From assembly GCA_015494395.1 (NCBI GenBank), contig WGBG01000162.1, forward strand, positions 1 through 38,054: a stretch of 38,054 bases of DNA. The letters run 5' to 3'. The notes beneath the pieces were generated by a model. The model did no database searches. It worked only from the letters and a program-made list of their open reading frames with translations, and was not told where the DNA came from. Positions 462 to 37,903 of the stretch are shown here, in pieces (position 1 is the first letter of the stretch; every line of letters begins with the position of its first letter). A program made the translations under genes and the position numbers. The DNA comes from Deltaproteobacteria bacterium. Its GTDB lineage: Bacteria > Desulfobacterota > Dissulfuribacteria > Dissulfuribacterales > QOAL01.

Positions 462-1073
462 TTATGCCTGCTCATCCAGCTTGGCCTGGACCATCTTTAT
501 CACCTCAGCCGGCGTGTCTTTTTTAAGCAGTTCGTTAAACTGGGTCCGGTAGTTTTTGATAAGGCTGATCCCCTCCACCAGCACATCATACCCCTTCCAT
601 TCATTTCCGTTTTTGTAGAGCCTGTAGGTGATGGGTATTTTCTTGCCCTGATAGGTTACAGTTGTTTCAATAAGTGCCTTTTTGGGTGTCAGTATCCTCT
701 CTTTATCAAAGCTGACCTTGGCATCTTTATATGTATCTATCCGGCTGATATAAGTGTTCTGAAGCAGTTTGGCAAACAGTGTAGCAAACTGATCAAATTC
801 GTCCTTTTTGAACTTTCTGGCATTTCTGCCCAGGGCAAGCAGTGAAACCTTGCGGAAATCAAAGATCCTGTTTGCAAGCTCTTTCAACTTTTCCTGGCGC
901 CTGGCCTCTGCCTCTTTGCCCTGGTATGCAGGGTCATTCAGAACGCTTAGAAGCTCGTTATAGGCGTTTTCAATTACTTTCATGGGGGACTGGGCAGTCT
1001 GCGCAACGGCGTTTCCAGAAGAAATGAAAAATACCAGCATCAGCGAAGCCAGAGGAATGATCAGTCTGTGCAT
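462..1073 (-). CDS. mlaC: MlaC/Ttg2D-type periplasmic phospholipid-binding protein
   Basis: Signal peptide, NRIFDFRKVSLLALGRNARKF, YKNGNEWKGYDVLVEGISLIKNYRTQF; sits downstream of mlaEFD. Confidence 0.88.
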   Translation of the reverse strand: MHRLIIPLASLMLVFFISSGNAVAQTAQSPMKVIENAYNELLSVLNDPAYQGKEAEARRQEKLKELANRIFDFRKVSLLALGRNARKFKKDEFDQFATLFAKLLQNTYISRIDTYKDAKVSFDKERILTPKKALIETTVTYQGKKIPITYRLYKNGNEWKGYDVLVEGISLIKNYRTQFNELLKKDTPAEVIKMVQAKLDEQA

Positions 1074-1392: not shown

Positions 1393-1845
1393 TTATTTCT
1401 TTACACTTCCAAATACATATTTCCCAAGGAGACTTTCAATATCAATGGGCGGTTCTGTGTCTGTGAGGACATCTCCGTCACCAAGGAGGTCTTCAGAACC
1501 GCCTGGCGAAATGCTTACATACTTGTCCCCAATCAGTCCATTGGTCTTGACTGATGCAATGGCATCCTCCTGAATGGGCACGCCCTTTCGTATCTTCATG
1601 GCTATGCGAGCGGTGAGAGAGTCAATATCAAGCTTGATCTCCCCGACTCTTCCGATTTCAACCCCTGCCATGCGGACACTGCTGTCTTTTTTCAGGCCGC
1701 CAATGGTGTCAAAGTTGGCAAATATGGTGTAGTAATTACTGCCCACAAGTTCCATTTTGCCCAGTTTGACAGTGAGATATCCTACGAACAGAAGCCCAAT
1801 GAAGATGAAGATACCAACCGTTACTTCCATTGAATATTTTTTCAT
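1393..1845 (-). CDS. mlaD: MlaD (MCE-domain) substrate-binding protein
   Basis: Single TM then MCE domain: FANFDTIGGLKKDSSVRMAGVEIGRVGEIKLD, KTNGLIGDKYVSISPGG. Confidence 0.93.
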   Translation of the reverse strand: MKKYSMEVTVGIFIFIGLLFVGYLTVKLGKMELVGSNYYTIFANFDTIGGLKKDSSVRMAGVEIGRVGEIKLDIDSLTARIAMKIRKGVPIQEDAIASVKTNGLIGDKYVSISPGGSEDLLGDGDVLTDTEPPIDIESLLGKYVFGSVKK

Positions 1846-3092
1846 TCTTTTACTCCGTTGCCGCTGCAGGATAACCTTGCCATGAGCTGCTGTTCATTTT
1901 TTGCCTCACGGACAAGGCTTTCTATTGTAACCGGCCTGTCTGTGCTTGCTATCCCTGCCATTACAGATATGTCAACACAGCTTTTGGGATACTTGTCAGC
2001 CTTGAGCAGGGCCATCTCCTGCATCTCCTTCTTCAGGCGTTCAAGGTGTTTGACTGCCCGTTCCTTGTCTGTGTGGGGCAGTACGGTGACTATGCTGCAT
2101 GTATCATATCTTGCAGAGGTGCCGATCATGCCAAAGTGTTTCTTGAGCATCATTCCCAGGCACTGCACAAGCCTCTGTTCAAGTATGTAGCCGATTTTTT
2201 CCCTTACCTGCTTGAGATCGTTTATGGTAAAGAGAATCAGTGTAAGCCTGTTCTGGTACTGGCCCATTCTTGCAAGCTCGGAGTTAAGCAGCCTCTCAAG
2301 CTCATGCTTTGTAAGCAGACCGGTAAGCTCATCCTTCAGGCTCTCCTGGCCAAGCAGGAACTGTCTTACCACCTCATTGTCAGACTGCTCGAGCTCAACA
2401 GGCGTACCCTGAAAGGGCACCTTTTTGTTTTCTATGATGGCTACCCGGTTAGAGATGAAAAAAACATCAGGAATGTCGTGACTTACCATGACTGCGGTAA
2501 ATCCGATTTCGCGCTGATGGTGTGCAATCATGGCAAGGACTGCATTTTTCCGCAAGGGATCAAGGCCTGTTGTTGGCTCGTCAAAGAGTATGATCTCAGG
2601 GTCTGTCACCAGCGCCCTTGCAAGGGCAACCCTTTTCTGCATCCCGCCTGAAATCTGGGAAGGGTACTTGTCCAGCACCTCCTCGATTTCAAACTGTTCC
2701 AGTTTCTGCTGAACCTTCTCCCTGATCTCCCTGTCTTTCATGCTTGTGCGTTCCCTAAGGGGAAGGGCAATATTCTCAAAGACATTCAGGGAGTCAAAGA
2801 GGGCGTTCTGCTGGAACATGTAGCTTACACTCCTCTTGAAAGCGGTCCACTCATTGCGCTTCATGCCGGCAAGCGGCCTGCCTTCAAACAGGATCTCCCC
2901 GCTGTCCGGCTTCATAAGGCCGATAATGTGTTTCAGAAAAACACTCTTGCCAACACCGCTTTTGCCGATAATGGCAGTAATCTCACCCCGGTAAATGGAT
3001 ACGTTGACATTGTCCAGTATGGTGCGGTCTCCGAAACGCTTGGTGACATTCCGGAACTCTATAAATGGTTTTTTGGCGGTGTTATCTGTCAT
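1842..3092 (-). CDS. mlaF: MlaF-type ABC ATPase with C-terminal degenerate GGDEF-like domain
   Basis: Walker A GKSGVGKS, signature SGGMQKR, Walker B ILFDEPTTGLDP; residues ~254-408 follow the GGDEF-domain pattern (DELTGLLTKHELERLLNSEL...LILFTINDLKQV...GTSARYDTCSIVTVLPHTDKERAVKHLERLK...ISVMAGIAS). Confidence 0.92.
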   Translation of the reverse strand: MTDNTAKKPFIEFRNVTKRFGDRTILDNVNVSIYRGEITAIIGKSGVGKSVFLKHIIGLMKPDSGEILFEGRPLAGMKRNEWTAFKRSVSYMFQQNALFDSLNVFENIALPLRERTSMKDREIREKVQQKLEQFEIEEVLDKYPSQISGGMQKRVALARALVTDPEIILFDEPTTGLDPLRKNAVLAMIAHHQREIGFTAVMVSHDIPDVFFISNRVAIIENKKVPFQGTPVELEQSDNEVVRQFLLGQESLKDELTGLLTKHELERLLNSELARMGQYQNRLTLILFTINDLKQVREKIGYILEQRLVQCLGMMLKKHFGMIGTSARYDTCSIVTVLPHTDKERAVKHLERLKKEMQEMALLKADKYPKSCVDISVMAGIASTDRPVTIESLVREAKNEQQLMARLSCSGNGVKE

Positions 3093-3913
3093 TACATGAG
3101 AAATGATGTAAGCACATAGTCAGCAATAAGGACAAGGACACAGGAGATTACCACGGCAGACGTGGTTGCAAGGCTTACTCCCCTTGCACCAAATCCCCCT
3201 GGTCTCATGTGTGTAAAATATCCCTCATAGCAGCAAATTGTGGAAACTATTGCAGCAAAAACAAATGATTTGATAAATCCCTCGCTGACATCCGCCCACT
3301 CAACACTGCTGTAGATGCTGTTCATGAAGATGCCGGAGTTTATCTGCAGCATTACGACACCTGTAAGATAGCCTCCAACTATTCCAATTACGTCAAAAAA
3401 GGCAGTAAGCAGTGGAAAGACGATGATTGATGCTGCGATCCTGGGGCTTATGAGGTATCTCACAGGGTTGATGTCCATGGTGTCAAGGGCATCAATCTGT
3501 TCGGAGATGCGCATTATGCCTATTTCGGCAGCTATGGATGAGCCTGCCCTGCCGATAATCATGAGCGCTGCCAGAACCGGCCCAAGCTCCCTGATAAGGG
3601 ATAGTGCCACGGCAGCGCCAAGTAGCCCTTCAGAGCCGAATTTAACAAGGGAGTAATAACCCTGAAGGCCCAGCACCATGCCGGTAAACAGCCCGATCAG
3701 CGAGATTATCAGGACGGATTTCACACCTATGAAATAGATGTGCTGTACGATTTTTTTGAACTGGAAGGGCAGTGAAAAGATCAGGAACAGCCCGTGCAAA
3801 AAGAATATGGTTACTGCACCCAACTCACCTATGAAATTGAAGGCCCTGCGGCCAATTCCGGCAAAAAAGTCAAGGGGTGCAGAAGTTGCGGACTGTTCCT
3901 GTGGCTGCATCAT
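3092..3913 (-). CDS. mlaE: MlaE-type ABC permease
   Basis: LSLIRELGPVLAALMIIGRAGSSIAAEIGIMRISEQIDALDTMDINPVRYL is the MlaE family core. Confidence 0.94.
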   Translation of the reverse strand: MMQPQEQSATSAPLDFFAGIGRRAFNFIGELGAVTIFFLHGLFLIFSLPFQFKKIVQHIYFIGVKSVLIISLIGLFTGMVLGLQGYYSLVKFGSEGLLGAAVALSLIRELGPVLAALMIIGRAGSSIAAEIGIMRISEQIDALDTMDINPVRYLISPRIAASIIVFPLLTAFFDVIGIVGGYLTGVVMLQINSGIFMNSIYSSVEWADVSEGFIKSFVFAAIVSTICCYEGYFTHMRPGGFGARGVSLATTSAVVISCVLVLIADYVLTSFLM

Positions 3914-3917
3914 GATT

Positions 3918-4574
3918 TTAGCCGAGTACTGCCTTTTTCAGGCTGTCAATACCTTCCCTGCTGATAACACGGCTCATCCTGTCCATCTTCTTGGCATGAT
4001 CCTTGTAGAAAGTCAGGATGCGCTCTGTAATTTCAAGTGCATCTTCTGTGCTGACGCCGGAAACCAGCTCCTGGGCAAGTGCAGGCCTGGAGCCTCCGTT
4101 TCCGCCTACCTGTATGACCCAGCCATCCGCCTTGCCTGTAAAAGCAAGGTCCTTGATGCAGTTTTCTGCGCACTGGTTTATGCAGCCGGATACGCCCATT
4201 TTGAACTTGGCAGGCAGGCTGAAGCCGTGATACCGCTTGTCAAGCTCCTGGGCAAGGGCAATTGAGTCCTGTTTGCCAAGCCTGCAGAAGGTTGAGCCAG
4301 GGCATGCCTTGACACTTCTGACACATGCACCTACTGCAGCCCCGGGGTCAGTGCCTATCTGCTCCCATGCACTGTCAATATCCTCTTCCTTGAGTCCAAC
4401 AATGGCAATGCGGGACGCACTTGTTATCTTAAGGGCAGCGCCGTATTTTTCAGCAACATCGGCAATGTTACGAAGGATTTGAGGGTCAGCTAGTCCCAGA
4501 GGAAAGTGTGGTACAATGGCATAGCTTTCCTTGTCACGCTGGAGCACAGCTCCTTTCTCTCCATCCTTTAGCAT
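3918..4574 (-). CDS. Small (218 aa) assimilatory-type siroheme-[4Fe-4S] sulfite/nitrite reductase-like protein
   Basis: CPGSTFC...CINQCAENC siroheme/4Fe-4S ligand motifs; size like the 218-aa low-spin enzyme known from Desulfovibrio vulgaris. Confidence 0.8.
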   Translation of the reverse strand: MLKDGEKGAVLQRDKESYAIVPHFPLGLADPQILRNIADVAEKYGAALKITSASRIAIVGLKEEDIDSAWEQIGTDPGAAVGACVRSVKACPGSTFCRLGKQDSIALAQELDKRYHGFSLPAKFKMGVSGCINQCAENCIKDLAFTGKADGWVIQVGGNGGSRPALAQELVSGVSTEDALEITERILTFYKDHAKKMDRMSRVISREGIDSLKKAVLG

Positions 4575-4576
4575 GG

Positions 4577-4786
4577 TTATTTCTCCTCTTCTTCAGTGGT
4601 TACTTCTATACATTTGGTGGGGCACATGGCGGCTGAAAGTTCCACTGTTTCCTGTTCAGTGGTTTCATCCTTGAGAAGGTTTGCCTTGTCTCCTGTCTCG
4701 TCCATTTCAAAGACGTCAGGGGCAACTTCAGCACATGCTCCACATCCCTTGCAGTGAAATTTGTCAAGTTCTACTTTTATTTTCAT
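4577..4786 (-). CDS. Single-cluster ferredoxin
   Basis: CKGCGACAEVAPDVFEMDE...CPTKCI. Confidence 0.88.
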   Translation of the reverse strand: MKIKVELDKFHCKGCGACAEVAPDVFEMDETGDKANLLKDETTEQETVELSAAMCPTKCIEVTTEEEEK

Positions 4787-4880
4787 AATAATTTTGGTGG
4801 ATTTGAATATGGTACAGACTTATAAAATTACCGTCAGCAGGCTGCACTGTCAACATGTTCCGAGGTGGTGCTGACTATTT

Positions 4881-5981
4881 TTAAGGTTGAGACTCATCAC
4901 ATTCCTCTTTTTCCGTGCTGACGGTTCCAACCGCCGGAAGATACTTGTGAAACGAGTTGCCGTAAAGCTCCCATACGGTTATGAAAAGCGCTGCTATTAT
5001 GGGGCCAACGATAATGCCCTTGATGCCAAACATGCTTATGCCGCCAAGCGTTCCGAACAGTACAAAGAGGTCATGCATCTGGGTATCCCTGCCAACAAGC
5101 CTTGGGCGGAGCAGGTTGTCCAGGTTGCCTGCCACGAGGGCGCAGGATACCACCAGTATGGAAATGCCTTTCCAGTCCCCCTGGAGTGCCAGTATAACAA
5201 GGGCAGGTCCCCATATTATGGCAGTGCCTACCGCAGGGACAATGGACATTACTGCCATGACTGTTCCCCAGAATACCGGACCCTTTATGCCGGCAAGGTA
5301 AAAGCCCAGACCGCACAGGAAACCCTGGAGCATGCCGATAATAAACGTGCTTTTGATTGTTGCCCCGGCAACTGTGGTAAAACGGTTGAGCAGGAGCTGT
5401 TCATCCCTGTCTTCAAGGGGCAGGTAATAGAGTATCTTGTTCAGGAGTGTGTTTCCCATTGTGAGAAAATAGAACATGACGTAGAGCATGATAAGGGTAT
5501 TCAGAAGGGCGGTTATGGTGAGGCTTGTAACAGATGAGAGGCTGTCTATGAGAAATGACGACACAGTGCCCACGAGTTGTCCTGCCTTCTGAATGATAAA
5601 GTCCCTGTATGGCAGTATCTGATCGTAGAATGGGAGATTGTGCAGGTAGGTTGATATGATGGACGGTTTGTTCATGAAGGAGTGTATCCAGGGGCTCACG
5701 GACTGTCCTACTGTAATTGCCTGTGAGACCACGATGGTTATAAGGGCAGAGAGCGGAATGATTATGAGCAGAACGATTGCTGTTACCGTTATTCCTGATG
5801 CCAGGTTCTCCCGTCCGTTAAGCCTCGCAGTAAGCCAGGTGTAAACCGGATGCACAAGCGCCGCAAAGAGCCCTGCCATGAAAATTGGCATGATAAAATT
5901 CCTGATCATGAACAGAAAAAGAATAGATATGGCAAAAACCAGTAAAAGCAGTGCGGCTGTGTGTACGGTTTCTCTTTTCAT
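4881..5981 (-). CDS. AI-2E family transporter (PerM/YdiK-like permease)
   Basis: Multiple TM; FLTMGNTLLNKILYYLPL, GPVFWGTVMAVMSIVPAVGTAIIWGPA, LFVLFGTLGGISMFGIKGIIVGPIIAALF. Confidence 0.87.
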   Translation of the reverse strand: MKRETVHTAALLLLVFAISILFLFMIRNFIMPIFMAGLFAALVHPVYTWLTARLNGRENLASGITVTAIVLLIIIPLSALITIVVSQAITVGQSVSPWIHSFMNKPSIISTYLHNLPFYDQILPYRDFIIQKAGQLVGTVSSFLIDSLSSVTSLTITALLNTLIMLYVMFYFLTMGNTLLNKILYYLPLEDRDEQLLLNRFTTVAGATIKSTFIIGMLQGFLCGLGFYLAGIKGPVFWGTVMAVMSIVPAVGTAIIWGPALVILALQGDWKGISILVVSCALVAGNLDNLLRPRLVGRDTQMHDLFVLFGTLGGISMFGIKGIIVGPIIAALFITVWELYGNSFHKYLPAVGTVSTEKEECDESQP

Positions 5982-6010
5982 GAATGACCCTTTTAAAGTA
6001 TGATTTTTAG

Positions 6011-6236
6011 TATCTATTCAGCGTAGTGAATGGTCTTGTTTTGGAGTGACTATGAAGAATTTCGTAGTTTTTCTTGGCGAAGCGCAGCCATAAAAATCGC
6101 GTCTGTCTGAGCGAGGGACGAGCGAGTTTCGCGATTTTGGCAGAGCAAGCCTTAGAAAAACAAGAAATTGTTCACCGGAACGGAAAAACAAGGCCATTCA
6201 CTACCCTCAATTACCATCAATACGCTGAACAGTTAC
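6011..6236. repeat. Long palindromic element, family 2 copy 1 (~226 bp)
   Basis: CGTAGTGAATGGTCTTGTTTT (about 6022) pairs with AAAACAAGGCCATTCACTAC (about 6184-6203); central AAAAATCGCG...CGCGATTTT hairpin; flanked by 9-bp direct repeats GATTTTTAG (6002-6010, 6237-6245). Confidence 0.8.
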
Positions 6237-7215: not shown

Positions 7216-8082
7216 TTAATGGGCTTCAGGCCGGTCTTCCACCCTGTCGTAACGCATCTGGGTTATCTGCTCTGATATCAGCCCCATAAGAAAGACTATC
7301 ATGCCATTTATGAAGAGAAGGGCCGACATGTTGGTAAAGCGGTGCTGGGTCATAAAAGTATAGCTATAGTAGCCCAACCCCACAAGAAAGAAGAAGAGAC
7401 TTAAGGGGATAAAAATTCTAAGCGGGGAGAACAGGGTTGCGATCTTTATGATTATTATCACAAAACGGCTTCCGTCCTGCAGGATTTTTATCTTGCTTTT
7501 GCCTATCCTTGCTTTAGCCGTTATGGGCACGTACTTGATTGTAAGCCCGCTTCGAAGATAGGCAAGGGTGCTTGTGGTTGGGTATGAAAAGGTGTTTGGA
7601 AACAGGTAGAGATATCGCATTACTGTTGCCCTTCTGAATACCCTGAATCCAGATGTCAGATCCTTTATAGGAAACTTTCCAACATAGGAGGCAAGCCTGT
7701 TATAGAGCCAGTTTGCTATGCGGCGCTGAACAGATGCCTGACTGGCTGCGCTTCTTGCCCCCACCACAAGGTCATATTCCCCTGCATGTTTAAGGAGTTT
7801 TGCTATATCTTCCGGTGCATGCTGACCATCTCCATCCATGAGTACTACAAAATCGCCCCTGGCATTTCTTATACCTGTCTTTACTGCCGCACCGTTACCG
7901 ATGTTATAGGGGTGTACCACCACCCTTGCACCAGCATTTTTTGCCCTCTCCCCGGTCCTGTCTGTACTTCCGTCATCCACAACCACAATCTCATATTCCG
8001 GGTACATCTCTTTTATGCGGGAGACTGTGCTGCCAATAGCGCCTTCTTCGTTGTATGCAGGTATTACAACAGATACTTTCAT
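7216..8082 (-). CDS. GT2 family glycosyltransferase (dolichyl/undecaprenyl-phosphate sugar synthase-like)
   Basis: SVVIPAYNEEGAIGSTV, IVVVDDGSTDRT, VVLMDGDGQHAPEDI, two C-terminal TM segments. Confidence 0.88.
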   Translation of the reverse strand: MKVSVVIPAYNEEGAIGSTVSRIKEMYPEYEIVVVDDGSTDRTGERAKNAGARVVVHPYNIGNGAAVKTGIRNARGDFVVLMDGDGQHAPEDIAKLLKHAGEYDLVVGARSAASQASVQRRIANWLYNRLASYVGKFPIKDLTSGFRVFRRATVMRYLYLFPNTFSYPTTSTLAYLRSGLTIKYVPITAKARIGKSKIKILQDGSRFVIIIIKIATLFSPLRIFIPLSLFFFLVGLGYYSYTFMTQHRFTNMSALLFINGMIVFLMGLISEQITQMRYDRVEDRPEAH

Positions 8083-8117: not shown

Positions 8118-10439
8118 TTATCTGTAAAATTTGGTCCAGTCGATCCTGTCCCCCGTTACCTTCCAGATCTGGTAAGACGGTGTCCTGAGGGCAACAGGAG
8201 AGAAGTAGGGCCGTGCGTTAATGTGCCTGATAAAGAGTTTGTTAAAGACCGATTCTGCAATGGTACTGTCCTCAAGGGCACCAAAGCCTGCAGGGGCAAG
8301 AATTTCAAAGTCATATCCTTTTTCATGTTCAAATGAGAATCTTTTCAGTTTTCTTCCGTAGTTTATCAGCCCCTTTTTAAGCATAACCTGCCTGCGCCCC
8401 TTCTTTGCGATTCCCCTTTTGAAATCAACCGAGATCATGCGGTTGGCATAGGTAAGATCATTTTTCTTTTTAAGCCCATAATATGCCTTGTAAACCGGGT
8501 GGATCCCCTCATGTTTTTTAATGTCCCAGGAACCGAGCCAGAACCACCAGTAACTGGTAAGCGTTAACCGCCAGTCAACGAAAAGATAGACAGGTCGTGC
8601 ATCTGAAGGAAAGAAGAACCGTAGCCAGTCCTCAGGGGTTTTATACTGTTCGGTTGGTTTCAACCCTGCCTGAGCAATTAAAAAACGTGACTTTTCGGGC
8701 CCCAAAGCCATGACCTTTTTTATCATGGCAAGCCCCTTTGCCTTGCCCTTGCCAAGGGCGTTGTAAAACATGTTGATTCCACTCATGCCCCGTGCAACGT
8801 AAAACTGCATGAAGTTGGCAGAGAGCCGGAGGTTATGCGTGGTATAGGGTATTGCATTATATACAGAGCGCTCCGGATTGTGCACGGAACCGTCATTTAC
8901 CGTGCCCCGACGTGCCCAGTAGATCATGTTGTAGCCATGATCCCACCATGCCCAGATAACCGCATCCTTTGGTGTCTTTTTGCCTGCCTCAACCATTCCC
9001 CCTATGAGGTGAGGGGGCTCTTTGGGCCAGAAGGTCTTTTTCATGCCCTTGCTGTAGGCAGGATAGGCAAGTACCAGTACAAGCAGCGGCGCCACAATGG
9101 CAAGCCAACTGAACTTTTTCTTCCACTGCCATATCTCGGATATAAGGAATCCCGTTCCAAGCGCCAGCACAGGTGCAAGAAAGATAATGAAGCGTTTGGC
9201 AAACAGGAACGAGAGACAGCCAAGTATCAAAGGGACTGAGAGAAATAGGCTTTCCTTTGGTTTCCTGTAAAAGAGAAACAGCAAACCGGCCACACCAAAC
9301 AGGAATACAGGCAGGCTGTCCGTGGTTTTCTGGATTATTTCCTTGAAACTTGGTCGTGCCTGTTCTGAAATTGTGACACCTATGTTTGGAAAATCACTGG
9401 ATGCCTCTTTTGATATATATTGATACTGGGAAACAACCCCCTTGATAATTTTTACCGGCAGGTCAAATCCCTTCCATGCAAGCAGCAGGAACAGTGCAGA
9501 AGCGGCAATGCCAGCCAATATCAGACCTTCTCGCCTGGGAGGGCGGTAAAAAAACAGCAGGGCCACTACCAACGGCAGCAATGTAATGGTGATAGTTACC
9601 TGGGGGGTCTGATCCCACCACCACAAAAAGAGACCCAGTACCACAAATCCTCCTGCAAGATAGAAATATCTCCTTCGTGTCTGTTCAACCCCGAACTTGA
9701 GGAAGCAGAACACAGCACAGGTTGCCCAGGTTACGTTCATGCAGTCTGTATCAAACCACCCGACATTGCTCCTGTATATGTAATAGAAGGAGAGAAGACT
9801 CATCAGAGCGGCAGTTAGCCCCATTGACGGGCCTCCGTAAAATCTTCCCAGGGCATACACAGGCAGGGCAAGGAGGATACCCAGGATCGGTGGCATGAAT
9901 GCCCCGATCCAGTTCAGGGAAAGGTGGGTGATTTTGGCAGCAGTAGCGGCAAGAACCGATATAAGCGGCGGCGGTTCCGGCCGTTTGGGATAGTCAGGGA
10001 CCGCCCTTAATGTATCTACCGGGGTATAGGTGCCGTCAACCAGGTCCTTGGCAAGACTCAGATAATAGTACCCATCAAAGGTGGTGAGAAGCGGCTCTCC
10101 CTTGTAAAATGCCCTTGCAGGGTTGGATTTCCAGTCCTGGTAGTCTTCAACCCTTACAAGCATACCCACTGATATAACAAGGCAGAGGGTGATGATTTCA
10201 AGAAGCAGTGTTCTTGTCTTGATCCAGTTATAGCATAATACCATGGGAGGGGTTATGGGTGTCTTGTCTCCGGATTCCTCTTGATTTGAAAGCACAGCCT
10301 CTGTGTTTTGCTGGACAGCCTGTTTCTTATTGGCCCTGTCCTGCCTTATTTTGCGTTTTGCCAAAATTTGCTCCTTAGGTATGTCCGGTTTGGTTATTGC
10401 ATTTGAAGCAAGTGTTAAAAGCACAGCCAGGTCACGCAA
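8118..10439 (-). CDS. STT3/PglB-type oligosaccharyltransferase
   Basis: Multi-TM N-terminus, GWFDTDCMN DxD motif, TISE loop motif, WAWWDHGY (WWDYG-like) catalytic motif. Confidence 0.87.
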   Translation of the reverse strand: MRDLAVLLTLASNAITKPDIPKEQILAKRKIRQDRANKKQAVQQNTEAVLSNQEESGDKTPITPPMVLCYNWIKTRTLLLEIITLCLVISVGMLVRVEDYQDWKSNPARAFYKGEPLLTTFDGYYYLSLAKDLVDGTYTPVDTLRAVPDYPKRPEPPPLISVLAATAAKITHLSLNWIGAFMPPILGILLALPVYALGRFYGGPSMGLTAALMSLLSFYYIYRSNVGWFDTDCMNVTWATCAVFCFLKFGVEQTRRRYFYLAGGFVVLGLFLWWWDQTPQVTITITLLPLVVALLFFYRPPRREGLILAGIAASALFLLLAWKGFDLPVKIIKGVVSQYQYISKEASSDFPNIGVTISEQARPSFKEIIQKTTDSLPVFLFGVAGLLFLFYRKPKESLFLSVPLILGCLSFLFAKRFIIFLAPVLALGTGFLISEIWQWKKKFSWLAIVAPLLVLVLAYPAYSKGMKKTFWPKEPPHLIGGMVEAGKKTPKDAVIWAWWDHGYNMIYWARRGTVNDGSVHNPERSVYNAIPYTTHNLRLSANFMQFYVARGMSGINMFYNALGKGKAKGLAMIKKVMALGPEKSRFLIAQAGLKPTEQYKTPEDWLRFFFPSDARPVYLFVDWRLTLTSYWWFWLGSWDIKKHEGIHPVYKAYYGLKKKNDLTYANRMISVDFKRGIAKKGRRQVMLKKGLINYGRKLKRFSFEHEKGYDFEILAPAGFGALEDSTIAESVFNKLFIRHINARPYFSPVALRTPSYQIWKVTGDRIDWTKFYR

Positions 10440-15488: not shown

Positions 15489-16703
15489 CTATTTAGCAGC
15501 CTTTAGTCTTTTGATCTCCGCCCTCTGCTGCCTTATCTGATCAAGAAGTGCTTCGGTATTCTTTTTGTACTCCTGAAGTTCCTTTTCCTTTGCCGCTATT
15601 TCTGCCTTAAGCTTGGCAACATCATCATTTGCTGTGGTCAGTTTAAGGTCAGCAGGGGGGGGAAGCGGTTTTACCGTGGTACTGGATATCGTGGAGTTTG
15701 CTGAAACGCCGTTTTTTGAGGCGATTGCCTTTTTTAGCTGCGCAATTTCCTCAAGGTATCTTGCTCCTGACTCCTTGAACTGCTTCTGAAGGCTGTCCAG
15801 TCGTGTGCTGCATGCATCAAGCTGCATCTTGAGTCTTTTAAGCTCCATGCAGTTTTGCATGTTTTTACATTTGCACCCTGGCTTTCCTGCTGCCTCCTCT
15901 TGCATGGCCGATGCCTTCTTGCATTTGCCCATGCATTTGAAATTTTCCTTGCCCTGCCCCGGCGTCGCTGCAGAGCCAGCCCCTGGACTTGCTGCATTCA
16001 TAAGCTGTCTGGTGCATGCATCAAGGTCAGCAGAAAGGCTCAGGCGGGTATTCCAGAGCTCCTGGGTCCTGTCAGCAAGCTGGCTTTCAAGCTCTCTGAT
16101 CCTGGAACGCAGTCTGTCTGCATCCCGTTTTTCCTCTTCAAGACGGCTCATGCGCTCCCGGCAGTATCTCAACTGACTTTCAAGCTCGGTGAGTTTAAGA
16201 GAGGCTGAGAAAGAGTTTTGCTGCTCACTTCTCAGCTGGGTCTGGAGCTCTTCACGCTGACGGATAAGCTGGGTTATCCTTGCTTCAAGCTCCTGGAGCC
16301 TGAACTGGCTGCCTGAAGCTGATGCCGCAGTAACGGCAGCCACAGTGCTTCCACGGGGAGCTGTTTTTGCCGAATCTGCCTTGGTTTCTGCCTGCTCCCT
16401 GAGCTTTTTTTCTTTTTCAAGTTCTGCCTTGAGCTCTTTATTTAATTTCTGGAGTTCCTGGTTTTTTGCCTTCAGCTCTGCAATCTGCTCCTGGAGCTTG
16501 GCAAGCTTTCGCTGTAATTCAAGCTGGCTTGAAGCAGCCTTGGCATAACTGGCGCGTGTTTCGTCAACAAGCGATGCCAGTTCCGCATTTTCTGCTTCCA
16601 GCACCTCTTTTATATGAAGTCTCTTGCCATCAAGTACTGATCCCCATATCATGAGAATGATACAGAGGACGGCAAGATATAACGTGGTCTTCCTGTCATC
16701 CAT
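15489..16703 (-). CDS. Membrane-anchored coiled-coil protein with internal Cys cluster
   Basis: N-terminal TM (TLYLAVLCIILMIWGSVL), long heptad-rich segments, internal CMGKC...CKCKNMQNC. Confidence 0.7.
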   Translation of the reverse strand: MDDRKTTLYLAVLCIILMIWGSVLDGKRLHIKEVLEAENAELASLVDETRASYAKAASSQLELQRKLAKLQEQIAELKAKNQELQKLNKELKAELEKEKKLREQAETKADSAKTAPRGSTVAAVTAASASGSQFRLQELEARITQLIRQREELQTQLRSEQQNSFSASLKLTELESQLRYCRERMSRLEEEKRDADRLRSRIRELESQLADRTQELWNTRLSLSADLDACTRQLMNAASPGAGSAATPGQGKENFKCMGKCKKASAMQEEAAGKPGCKCKNMQNCMELKRLKMQLDACSTRLDSLQKQFKESGARYLEEIAQLKKAIASKNGVSANSTISSTTVKPLPPPADLKLTTANDDVAKLKAEIAAKEKELQEYKKNTEALLDQIRQQRAEIKRLKAAK

Positions 16704-16772
16704 GGGTTTTCTCCTCCGGATGTATCTGGATCGCTGAGGCCTTATTCAACTTTATGAAAAGCAGTTTGGCTG

Positions 16773-17387
16773 CTATTCGTCGTCATCCTCGTCTGCATTG
16801 TGCTGCGATACCCACTTGTCATGCACCTCAAGGGCCATGTTGAAGATACCCTTGGCTGTATCAATATCAATGTCGGCAACGTTCATGGTGACAATTCCGT
16901 TCAGGATGTTCTGGGTGAACTCATCATAGAATTCAGTATCCATATCCTTGAGGCGTGTGTAAAGAATGGCAATCTTGTATTCATTCTCCATTGCCTCTTT
17001 TTCCTGACGGATTTCATTCATGGTAGCACTGGCCTCTTCAAGAGCCCTGGTAAGCTTGAGAAGTTCTGCATCTTTCTCATTGATGAGGGCAGCCTGCTCG
17101 GTAATTTTCTGGTCGCATTCGTCAAATTTTGCGTTCAGTTCACGAATTTTGGTATCTCTCTCGCTTATTTCGTCGTCTTTCTGCTGAATCTGCTCCTGGA
17201 GCTCTGCAATACGGCTCTCCTTTTCTGTGAGACGATCAGTGCAGTCCTTGAGCTGGGCCTTGGTCTTCTCCAGGTCTGACCCCTTTTTTGTCAGAAGCAG
17301 GACAGTCAAGATAAAAAGTCCACATGAAATTCCTCCGAAAGCCAGAACTGTCTGTGCATTTTGCTGGGCCCAAGTAATAAGATCCAT
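16773..17387 (-). CDS. Membrane-anchored coiled-coil protein
   Basis: N-terminal TM (TVLAFGGISCGLFILTVLLL) followed by coiled coil; acidic C-terminus. Confidence 0.7.
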   Translation of the reverse strand: MDLITWAQQNAQTVLAFGGISCGLFILTVLLLTKKGSDLEKTKAQLKDCTDRLTEKESRIAELQEQIQQKDDEISERDTKIRELNAKFDECDQKITEQAALINEKDAELLKLTRALEEASATMNEIRQEKEAMENEYKIAILYTRLKDMDTEFYDEFTQNILNGIVTMNVADIDIDTAKGIFNMALEVHDKWVSQHNADEDDDE

Positions 17388-35541: not shown

Positions 35542-37365
35542 TCAATTTGCTGTTTGTGGAAGGTACGCGTAGCTACCCTTTCTAATATTGATGAAGAAGA
35601 GTTCAGGTACACTGAACAGTGCGCCAAGTGCGCCTGATTTTATGGTTGTGCCAGAATCAAATGGTATTAAAAAAATCCCTGCGGCACTTCTTCCAACTCC
35701 CCAGGCAAGGTTGATTGCCCCAAACAGAGGCCGTGCCAGTGCCAGGTTATCTGTAAAGAACAGAAATGCACTGTCCTGTCTGCCATGTTTGTATGTGAGC
35801 GCTGTCAGGGTGTTACACTCCTTAAGAAAGACATTTACGGGGTTGTTGTCAGCATACATTGAAGCGAGTTTTCTCTGCCGCCAGGAAGGATAATATTTTA
35901 TGTTTTGGGAGTGAGCCGTAACTTGCTGAAACATCCTCCACGGAACAAATGAAATTTTTTTGAAGGTTTTTAATAATTCAGGATTAATCTGCTTCCCTGT
36001 TTGTCCGGATGAAATAGCCTCGCTGATGTTACTGAATATAGCAGTTACACAGTTGTTTGTGAAAAGATTATAGCCCATGCTGTTTTCAAGTTTTGTCTCA
36101 AGCCTTTTCAAGGTTTTTTTTGAGCTGGTCATGGCCTGTTCTGTCCAGTGTTTTGCAGGCCTGGCAGCAAAAGGGATGTATCCGGTCTTTTCCGGAATTA
36201 CGTTTTCCGGATAAATCCGCATCCTGTATGGCTTTTTTGCTGCTGCTTCAAGTTCTGCATATCTCGATCCCATGTTTTCAAGTATGCACCACCTGTATTC
36301 GTCCTTGTCTCCATTTAGCAGGTCTCGTGTTTTTTGTCTGATTTTTTGCCTGGCAGCCCTGTGAAGTTCATTAAGTGTCTCGGCATCACCGGCCATCTGG
36401 ATGGCATCGGTGGTTTCCAATCCTTCAGGAAAAGTACTGAGCAAAAAGAGCCTGCCTGTTCTTATTGAATTTTCCGCACAGAGATAGCGTGCACATGACA
36501 ACATTAGTGGAAAGCCACGATCCGGTCTTTTTGACTCAAGAAGCAATAAGACGGAATTTTCAAAGGTCTTTTCCCACAGTTTCAGCGCTGTGATTTCATC
36601 AGACGTAAGCTTTTCCATAGAGGCATTGTTTTCATCAAGCAAGACAATGGCATCCGGATTAAGAGCACGTCTTTCACTTATTATGGAAAGTGCGGCAAAT
36701 ATGGAAAACTGCTCCTGCCACCTGGGAATGTCTGCCGGTGCTGCGTTTTGAATACGGGAAAGCCTGGCTTTTGTCTTTGCAAGCTCCTTGTGGATAAAAC
36801 CTGGCCCAAGAGAGCCATCTATGAGTCTGCATAAAGAATCCCATGCGCTGCTGTCTGAATCATTCTGAAAAAAACCTGCACCTTTTACCGGAAGACTACT
36901 AGCATTGCTCTTAATTGATTCAAGCAGCCTCAAACTGTTTTGGAGATCATTCAGCCTTGCAAGACTGTCACCCTGCCAGGTCAGCAGTTTTATAAAGTGC
37001 TTCCAGACTGCATCTGACGCATCTATGGAGAGCCCTAGAGCTGCCTCATACATGCTGCGGTTTCCAAGGTCATTGTAGAAAAACCGGAATTTCTGAAAAT
37101 TTTCCCTCTTTAGCTCAAGAAGCCCGCGTTCAGAGTGTTGAAAGTGAAAAACGGTCTGTCCCCTCCTGAGCGCTGCATGCCCTCCGCTTGAGTCCCCTGT
37201 GTTGGCCTGGATATAGATGATGGCAAGCGAGGACGGGTTTAAGCCCTGCTCAGCCTGTACCAGGGCTGAAAAAAGCAGAAACATGACGAGAAGGCATGAT
37301 ACCCTGACTGCATGCCTTACTACAGTCATGCAGAGACAGTTTGCATCAGGAGTCATACCCTTCAA
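35542..37365 (-). CDS. DUF4105-like exported protein (circularly permuted NlpC/P60-type fold)
   Basis: Signal peptide; SSGGHAALRRG (His motif) near N-terminus and YNLFTNNCVTAIF (Cys motif) later. Confidence 0.65.
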   Translation of the reverse strand: MKGMTPDANCLCMTVVRHAVRVSCLLVMFLLFSALVQAEQGLNPSSLAIIYIQANTGDSSGGHAALRRGQTVFHFQHSERGLLELKRENFQKFRFFYNDLGNRSMYEAALGLSIDASDAVWKHFIKLLTWQGDSLARLNDLQNSLRLLESIKSNASSLPVKGAGFFQNDSDSSAWDSLCRLIDGSLGPGFIHKELAKTKARLSRIQNAAPADIPRWQEQFSIFAALSIISERRALNPDAIVLLDENNASMEKLTSDEITALKLWEKTFENSVLLLLESKRPDRGFPLMLSCARYLCAENSIRTGRLFLLSTFPEGLETTDAIQMAGDAETLNELHRAARQKIRQKTRDLLNGDKDEYRWCILENMGSRYAELEAAAKKPYRMRIYPENVIPEKTGYIPFAARPAKHWTEQAMTSSKKTLKRLETKLENSMGYNLFTNNCVTAIFSNISEAISSGQTGKQINPELLKTFKKISFVPWRMFQQVTAHSQNIKYYPSWRQRKLASMYADNNPVNVFLKECNTLTALTYKHGRQDSAFLFFTDNLALARPLFGAINLAWGVGRSAAGIFLIPFDSGTTIKSGALGALFSVPELFFINIRKGSYAYLPQTAN

Positions 37366-37795
37366 TTATGTAACTTTTCATGGCAGTCCGGGGACCGGTC
37401 ATGTCCTGAAGTATTTTAAGGGAGTCTATTTCCTCTTTCTTTACGCCGGCATGTTTCAGTCCCTTTCCTATTGCAATGTAGGTCTCTTTCAGGAATTCCC
37501 AGTTAGTAATTTTGTACCGTTCAGCAATCCTTGATATGCCGCGCATAAAATCAACAGAGCTTATCTGGGTATGGACCATGCTGTCTGTAAAGAGCATGAT
37601 TTCGTTCATGTAGCTTTGCTTGTCCTCTTCAGATATTTCGTCTCCGGAGCTTGATGTGCAGATGGATGACGAGGAGTCAGAGAAAGATTTTGATGAATCC
37701 GATATTGAACATGATGCAAGCAGTAAACATATTGTTGCCGCCAGCAGTGCTTTCAGTGCAAGACTGAAGATTTTCAGTGGGTTGGTTTTAGTCAT
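37346..37795 (-). CDS. Putative lipoprotein, translationally overlapping the DUF4105-like gene
   Basis: Start at MTKTNPLK with AGGAGG RBS; lipobox LLLASCS; Ser-rich N-terminus. Confidence 0.68.
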   Translation of the reverse strand: MTKTNPLKIFSLALKALLAATICLLLASCSISDSSKSFSDSSSSICTSSSGDEISEEDKQSYMNEIMLFTDSMVHTQISSVDFMRGISRIAERYKITNWEFLKETYIAIGKGLKHAGVKKEEIDSLKILQDMTGPRTAMKSYIIEGYDS

Positions 37796-37903
37796 GGCTT
37801 TGTTCCTCCTGCCCCAGGTTTTGTTTTGATAGCTTAGGTATAGCATGGAATAATGGCGTTTGCACTATAGTTGGTCTGTGAGTTAAAACTGAAGTTCCAT
37901 CTT

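Follow-up and report, generated by a model that had tools for sequence, protein, structure and literature searches.

In Escherichia coli, MlaF ends in a C-terminal extension (residues 247–269) that wraps around the other MlaF subunit and forms a dimer “handshake” (PMC7367683). Removal of this extension abolishes both function and complex assembly, and function is largely restored when a GCN4 dimeriser is put in its place (PMC7367683). The same study cites the dimeric regulatory domains of MetNI and describes the rescue of an E. coli mlaB deletion by MlaF overexpression (PMC7367683). The regulation of Mla systems is debated, in that the role of MlaB in E. coli is disputed and most diderms lack this protein. 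A different kind of precedent is provided by PopA and SgmT, which are c-di-GMP receptors whose GGDEF domains have a dead A-site and an intact I-site (PMC3509222).

The locus described here lies in a stretch of 38,054 nucleotides from a Deltaproteobacteria bacterium (hereafter the window), and it encodes an MlaF relative with a degenerate GGDEF-fold domain as its C-terminal tail. The mlaF-dGGDEF gene (1842..3092, minus strand) is a single open frame with an ATG start that encodes 416 amino acids plus a stop, and it overlaps both of its neighbors by a few bases or less. These neighbors are mlaE (3092..3913, minus strand), which encodes a permease of 273 amino acids (PF02405, E = 6.4e-79) without a fused STAS domain, and a short form of mlaD (1393..1845, minus strand; 150 amino acids; PF02470). 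With mlaC (462..1073, minus strand; 203 amino acids; PF05494), the gene order on the minus strand is mlaE-mlaF-mlaD-mlaC. A gene for MlaA was also detected in this genome, outside the mlaEFDC operon, so that the system consists of MlaA, C, D, E, and F without B.

Several other features of the window were recorded. Directly upstream of mlaE is a gene for a small nitrite/sulfite reductase-like protein (3918..4574, minus strand). An STT3/PglB-type oligosaccharyltransferase of 773 amino acids (8118..10439, minus strand) and a glycosyltransferase-like ORF downstream of its gene (7216..8082) together suggest N-glycosylation in this organism. Two overlapping ORFs of 607 and 166 amino acids (35542..37846, minus strand) have signal-like N-termini and no Pfam match, and an adjacent pair of coiled-coil-like proteins of 404 and 204 amino acids (15489..17387, minus strand), with an N-terminal hydrophobic segment, belongs to no clear family.

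The N-terminal part of the window protein is an ABC ATPase domain (residues 8–248; 2349..3071, minus strand) with the Walker A motif GKSGVGKS and the signature SGGMQKR, and it gives an ABC_tran match at residues 26–175 (E = 8.5e-38). MlaF was the top-ranked match of this ATPase in both sequence and structure searches. The core aligns to residues 8–246 of E. coli MlaF (6xbd, E = 7.8e-55) and also to Acinetobacter baumannii MlaF (7d06, E = 4.4e-56). The signature carries Met in place of Gln (SGGM), a feature of Mla-type ATPases (PMC7367683), and this residue, M151, is invariant in 63 sequences. Against NF008809, the equivalog model for E. coli-type MlaF, the window protein scored 213.7 bits, below the curated cut-off of 441. 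This score identifies it, at the level of sequence, as an MlaF relative other than the E. coli equivalog.

Beyond the ATPase, the same frame continues into the degenerate GGDEF-fold domain (residues 253–399; 1896..2336, minus strand). A sequence-only reading of this DNA had proposed such a fusion, and the proposal is borne out by Pfam, TIGR00254, a profile of the tail, AlphaFold models, and structure searches. PF00990 matched these residues with scores of 48–51 bits against a cut-off of 23.8 (E = 1.5e-12 for the whole protein, 2e-13 for the tail alone), and TIGR00254 scored 51.2 on the window protein, over its cut-off of 37.4. A profile of 63 homologous tails retrieved GGDEF proteins from among PDB sequences (best E = 9.6e-16). 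The AlphaFold2 models reached a pLDDT of 85 and a pTM of 0.78 at full length, and 82 and 0.79 for the tail alone. When the tail model was used for a structure search, GGDEF structures occupied all of the top 50 ranks, with PleD matched at E = 7e-10 and a TM score of 0.72. The comparison with PF00990 and the structure prediction had been named beforehand as possible refutations, and both found the GGDEF fold. All motifs that had been quoted are present, including RYDTCSI at residues 328–334, and the interval first assigned to the domain (1869–2333, residues 408–254) agrees with the Pfam domain start to within one codon. Within the tail, Pfam also gave FANC_SAP and PCI matches, which were sub-threshold and were set aside.

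A profile covering the end of the ATPase and the tail found the fusion in 31 of the 46 genomes of the window's class, one of these fusions being split over two contigs. Across the phylum, 36 full-length fusions occur in 35 of 297 Desulfobacterota genomes, and their scores are clearly separated from those of tailless MlaF. In a scan of named genomes, all 80 returned loci were fused, with ORFs of 407–431 amino acids, and they include uncultured Deltaproteobacteria, Syntrophaceae, Smithella, Syntrophus, Desulfobacterales, and Desulfopila aestuarii DSM 18488. The context of the fused loci is nearly always mlaE-mlaF-mlaD(short)-mlaC. In two cases from Desulfobacterales (L053 and L067), none of mlaE, mlaD, and mlaC lies within about 4 kb of the fused mlaF gene. 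Another genome (G176) carries two different fused genes near each other (L185; contig C15, 477..1829 and 4731..6032), one in an mla operon and the second downstream of mlaC without an mlaE of its own; it is possible that this pair forms a heterodimeric ATPase.

An assembly or frameshift artefact was considered and rejected, since more than 100 independent assemblies show the fused ORF as an open frame, that of D. aestuarii DSM 18488 included. These assemblies refute one half of the explanation that the tail is a misassembled fusion or a decaying relic without function. Loss of the domain in at least some lineages would agree with decay, but dN/dS values of 0.06–0.22 for the tail in 13 sister pairs demonstrate that it is under purifying selection. 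We therefore consider this explanation extremely improbable.

In a tree of the ATPase part, all fused proteins fall in one clade (support 100/99), within which five tailless proteins are nested (from genomes G225, G132, G269, G251, and G312). Because the fused proteins form a single clade and a single origin of the fusion was not rejected (p-AU 0.138), one fusion followed by several losses fits as the simplest reading. Both subgroups of fused proteins, the basal one and the crown group to which the window belongs, share a change from Asp to Gln at position 306 and a last helix that is shorter, by a net of about eight residues, than in the genome's own cyclases, and these shared features fit a single origin. 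The tailless MlaF relatives of G251 and G312 (L172 on G312:C1 and L171 on G251:C69) come from related genomes and lack an adjoining mlaE.

Functional sites in the crown group were counted in an alignment of 86 distinct sequences, the window's included. The remnant of the RYGGDEF signature, RYDTCSI (2091..2111, minus strand), keeps Arg328, which is present in 86/86 tails, whereas the Gly-Gly is present in none. Thr289 (2226..2228, minus strand) replaces the metal-binding Asp, which is likewise found in 0/86, and Thr or Ser occupies this position in 70 tails. Gln306 (2175..2177, minus strand) replaces the guanine-binding Asp, again found in 0/86, with Gln in 75 crown-group tails and in all basal tails. 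The window tail thus departs from an active diguanylate cyclase at DTCSI, T289, R297, and Q306, and the cyclase site is dead in each of the 95 homologous tails that were read. Residual cyclase activity is ruled out by all signature positions, as the sequence-only reading had anticipated.

The same residues bear on the idea of a ligand-sensing tail, in which the remodelled old pocket (Thr/Ser289, Gln306, Arg328, and often Glu333) binds a new small molecule and gates the ATPase, as an amino acid does in MetN. The prevalence of Gln306 (75/86) and Arg328 (86/86) indicates a pocket that was altered uniformly rather than simply eroded, and MetN has a similar ATPase-plus-sensor layout. However, the active-site positions are no better conserved than the rest of the tail (1.87 versus 1.92 bits), the GGDEF turn ranks near the bottom in conservation (2.23 bits, compared to 1.91 for the tail), and Arg328 and Gly301 are conserved in ordinary GGDEF domains too. 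A sensor of this type is, in our judgement, unlikely.

The c-di-GMP inhibitory site has been lost as well. Where an RxxD motif would be expected at the canonical spacing (residues 321–324; 2121..2132, minus strand), the window protein reads GMIG, and in the crown group the I-site Arg at position 321 occurs in 0/86 tails and the I-site Asp is nearly always missing. Given this loss, canonical c-di-GMP binding by the window tail appears unlikely. An earlier suggestion that the domain acts as a c-di-GMP-responsive brake therefore does not suit the window protein or the rest of the crown group, in which RxxD is found in 0/86 tails and the GTP-site residues are replaced, but it does fit the basal relatives, where five of nine tails (L208, L209, L211, L213, and L214) retain an RxxD motif that is canonically spaced from the signature. 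More generally, the tail might be a c-di-GMP receptor in the manner of PopA and SgmT, binding through the I-site beside a dead A-site and coupling lipid transport to the sessile/motile switch. The RxxD of these basal homologs and the precedent itself (PMC3509222) speak for a receptor, as do about ten other strong GGDEF domains in the window genome. Several of the latter have intact GGDEF signatures, which makes it likely that the cell contains c-di-GMP. Nonetheless, the I-site Arg is gone in the window and in all 86 crown-group tails, usually together with the Asp, and we regard a receptor function for this tail as quite improbable.

Because RxxD persists in the basal tails, the ancestral tail was probably a GGDEF domain with a dead A-site and an intact I-site, which suggests that the ancestor may have been a c-di-GMP receptor. 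The I-site was then probably lost later, in the crown group holding the window. A more speculative extension is that MlaF-dGGDEF began as a c-di-GMP-gated transporter, in which c-di-GMP at the I-site of the dead cyclase would have controlled MlaF dimerisation and thereby inter-membrane lipid traffic. The basal members (G080, G201, G246, G288, and G310) would still operate in this way, and the crown group would have retained the domain as a dimer clamp without a ligand or with different gating. We put this forward tentatively and consider it somewhat doubtful; the basal members would offer a possible direct link of c-di-GMP to outer-membrane lipid balance.

No STAS or mlaB gene is seen in the mla operon of the window, as had been noted from the sequence, and this result extends to the whole assembly (92% complete), where a PF13466 search found no STAS domain, although a very divergent MlaB could be missed and the MAG assemblies are incomplete. 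A search with PF01740 returned two STAS genes, one RsbR-like (PAS-STAS) and one RsbS-like (small STAS). These were rejected as mlaB candidates because their neighbors are RsbT/RsbW- and RsbU-like genes, the translations having been judged by eye. The Rsb/stressosome-like cluster in which they occur (L227; G000:C158, 32000..37500) lies beside an alaS-like gene and comprises a PAS-STAS protein, a STAS protein, two kinase-like ATPases, and a phosphatase.

Of the PF13466 matches listed, none lies closer than 20 kb to a fused mlaF. MlaF is tailless in all seven STAS-bearing systems that were examined, and in a second Mla system of relatives the STAS domain is fused to MlaE and MlaF is again tailless. 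No system was seen to combine a STAS domain with the dGGDEF tail, and the two thus seem to exclude each other. This pattern, along with the lack of mlaB in the operon and assembly, favors the proposal that the tail replaces MlaB, docking on the helical subdomain of MlaF and stabilising the ATPase like the E. coli STAS protein. However, many mlaE-mlaF-mlaD-mlaC operons of the class (L176 to L182) have neither a tail nor a nearby STAS gene, and lineages that lost the tail (G225 and G269) show no gain of mlaB. The rescue of an E. coli mlaB deletion by overexpressed MlaF (PMC7367683) also speaks against it. Since such operons exist and MlaB is only sparsely distributed in diderms (PMC10665443), the missing mlaB cannot carry the claim of replacement, and we view replacement as distinctly unlikely.

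The handshake extension is a better-fitting counterpart of the tail than MlaB. The alignable core ends at window residue 248 (E. coli 246) and the tail starts at 249 (E. coli 247), so the GGDEF module begins where the E. coli handshake extension begins. Tailless relatives end 5–32 residues after window residue 246. The junction (residues 249–261, QESLKDELTGLLT; 2310..2348, minus strand) is the best-kept segment of the tail, with a mean entropy of 1.03 bits compared to 1.91 for the whole tail, which diverges faster than the ATPase (0.86). A conserved junction combined with a variable GGDEF turn is as expected of a scaffold domain. The conservation of the junction and of the long helix 301–320, in a domain with no catalytic role left, would also suit a platform on which another cytoplasmic protein docks, a role that degenerate GGDEF domains have in several signalling complexes. 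Such a platform is very unlikely, however, given that no extra operon gene is co-conserved, the constant partners among those looked for being mlaE, mlaD, and mlaC.

A structure search with the full model ranked MlaF entries first and then MetN (3tui), which aligned over 364 columns spanning the ATPase and the C-terminal domain; the rmsd of 7.6 Å signifies a similar layout rather than a similar domain placement. As in proteins of the MetN and MalK kind, a compact C-terminal domain follows the ATPase core. From the position of the tail at the handshake site and this MetN-like layout, we infer a dimerising or regulatory tail, including its dimerisation and its effect on transport. By this analogy, we give roughly even chances to the reading that the tail is a folded and rigidly attached dimerising or regulatory module, which would pair with its twin and stabilise the MlaF dimer on MlaE independently of MlaB. 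It counts against a dimer that GGDEF domains alone often dimerise weakly. Moreover, the tail is not generally essential, as there are tailless relatives that manage with short extensions (5–32 residues).

Under the dimerising-module reading, we propose a single fusion event in an ancestor of part of the Desulfobacterota, which joined a GGDEF domain precisely to the end of the ATPase core, where the domain would have taken the place of the short handshake extension. The cyclase site would already have been dead in the common ancestor, with the metal Asp lost and Gln standing in for the guanine-binding Asp in either branch. This ancestor would still have had the c-di-GMP inhibitory site, with its loss following in the window's crown group. 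In the present-day protein, the two tails of an MlaF dimer would pair with each other, stabilise this dimer on MlaE, and so set transporter activity without MlaB. The tail would do the handshake's job and may perhaps tune it.

We found no earlier report of an MlaF-GGDEF or ABC ATPase-GGDEF fusion in the largely open-access literature searched, and this is apparently an undescribed, conserved domain fusion in a known transporter family. Two of ten family proteins scanned (L056 and L163) fall just under the Pfam GGDEF cut-off. Such members would carry a plain ABC ATPase annotation, which may partly explain why the fusion has gone unnoticed. The fusion is carried by many sulfur-cycle and syntrophic bacteria. 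In this lineage, a signalling domain is built permanently into the ATPase at the residue that accepts a working artificial dimeriser in E. coli, and these natural fused proteins make the dimerisation model of MlaF control testable.

Compared to the MlaF proteins of E. coli, A. baumannii, and Pseudomonas aeruginosa (6xgy, 6xbd, 7d06, and 7cha), the window protein has a similar ABC core (36–39% identical in the structural match), the same signature Met, and the same partners mlaE, mlaD, and mlaC. However, those proteins have an extension of about 25 amino acids plus MlaB, whereas the window has a 160-amino-acid GGDEF fold and no MlaB. MetN of the MetNI importer (3tui and 3dhw) likewise carries a compact regulatory domain at the C-terminal side of its ATPase; this domain is ACT-like and binds methionine in MetN and is GGDEF-homologous in the window protein. 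MceG of mycobacterial Mce1 (8fed), an ATPase related to MlaF, also serves an MCE lipid transporter that lacks MlaB, but its C-terminal region is, to our knowledge, not a GGDEF domain. PopA and SgmT share with the window protein a GGDEF domain with a dead A-site that is fused to another functional module, and they share RxxD with the basal MlaF fusions; by contrast, the window tail has lost the I-site, and its partner is a transporter ATPase rather than a kinase or receiver. Finally, an ammonium transporter with a C-terminal GGDEF domain (8qj3), which was matched by the tail profile with E = 2.4e-9, resembles the window protein in combining a transporter with this fold, but there the domain is carried by a channel-type permease and here by the ATPase.
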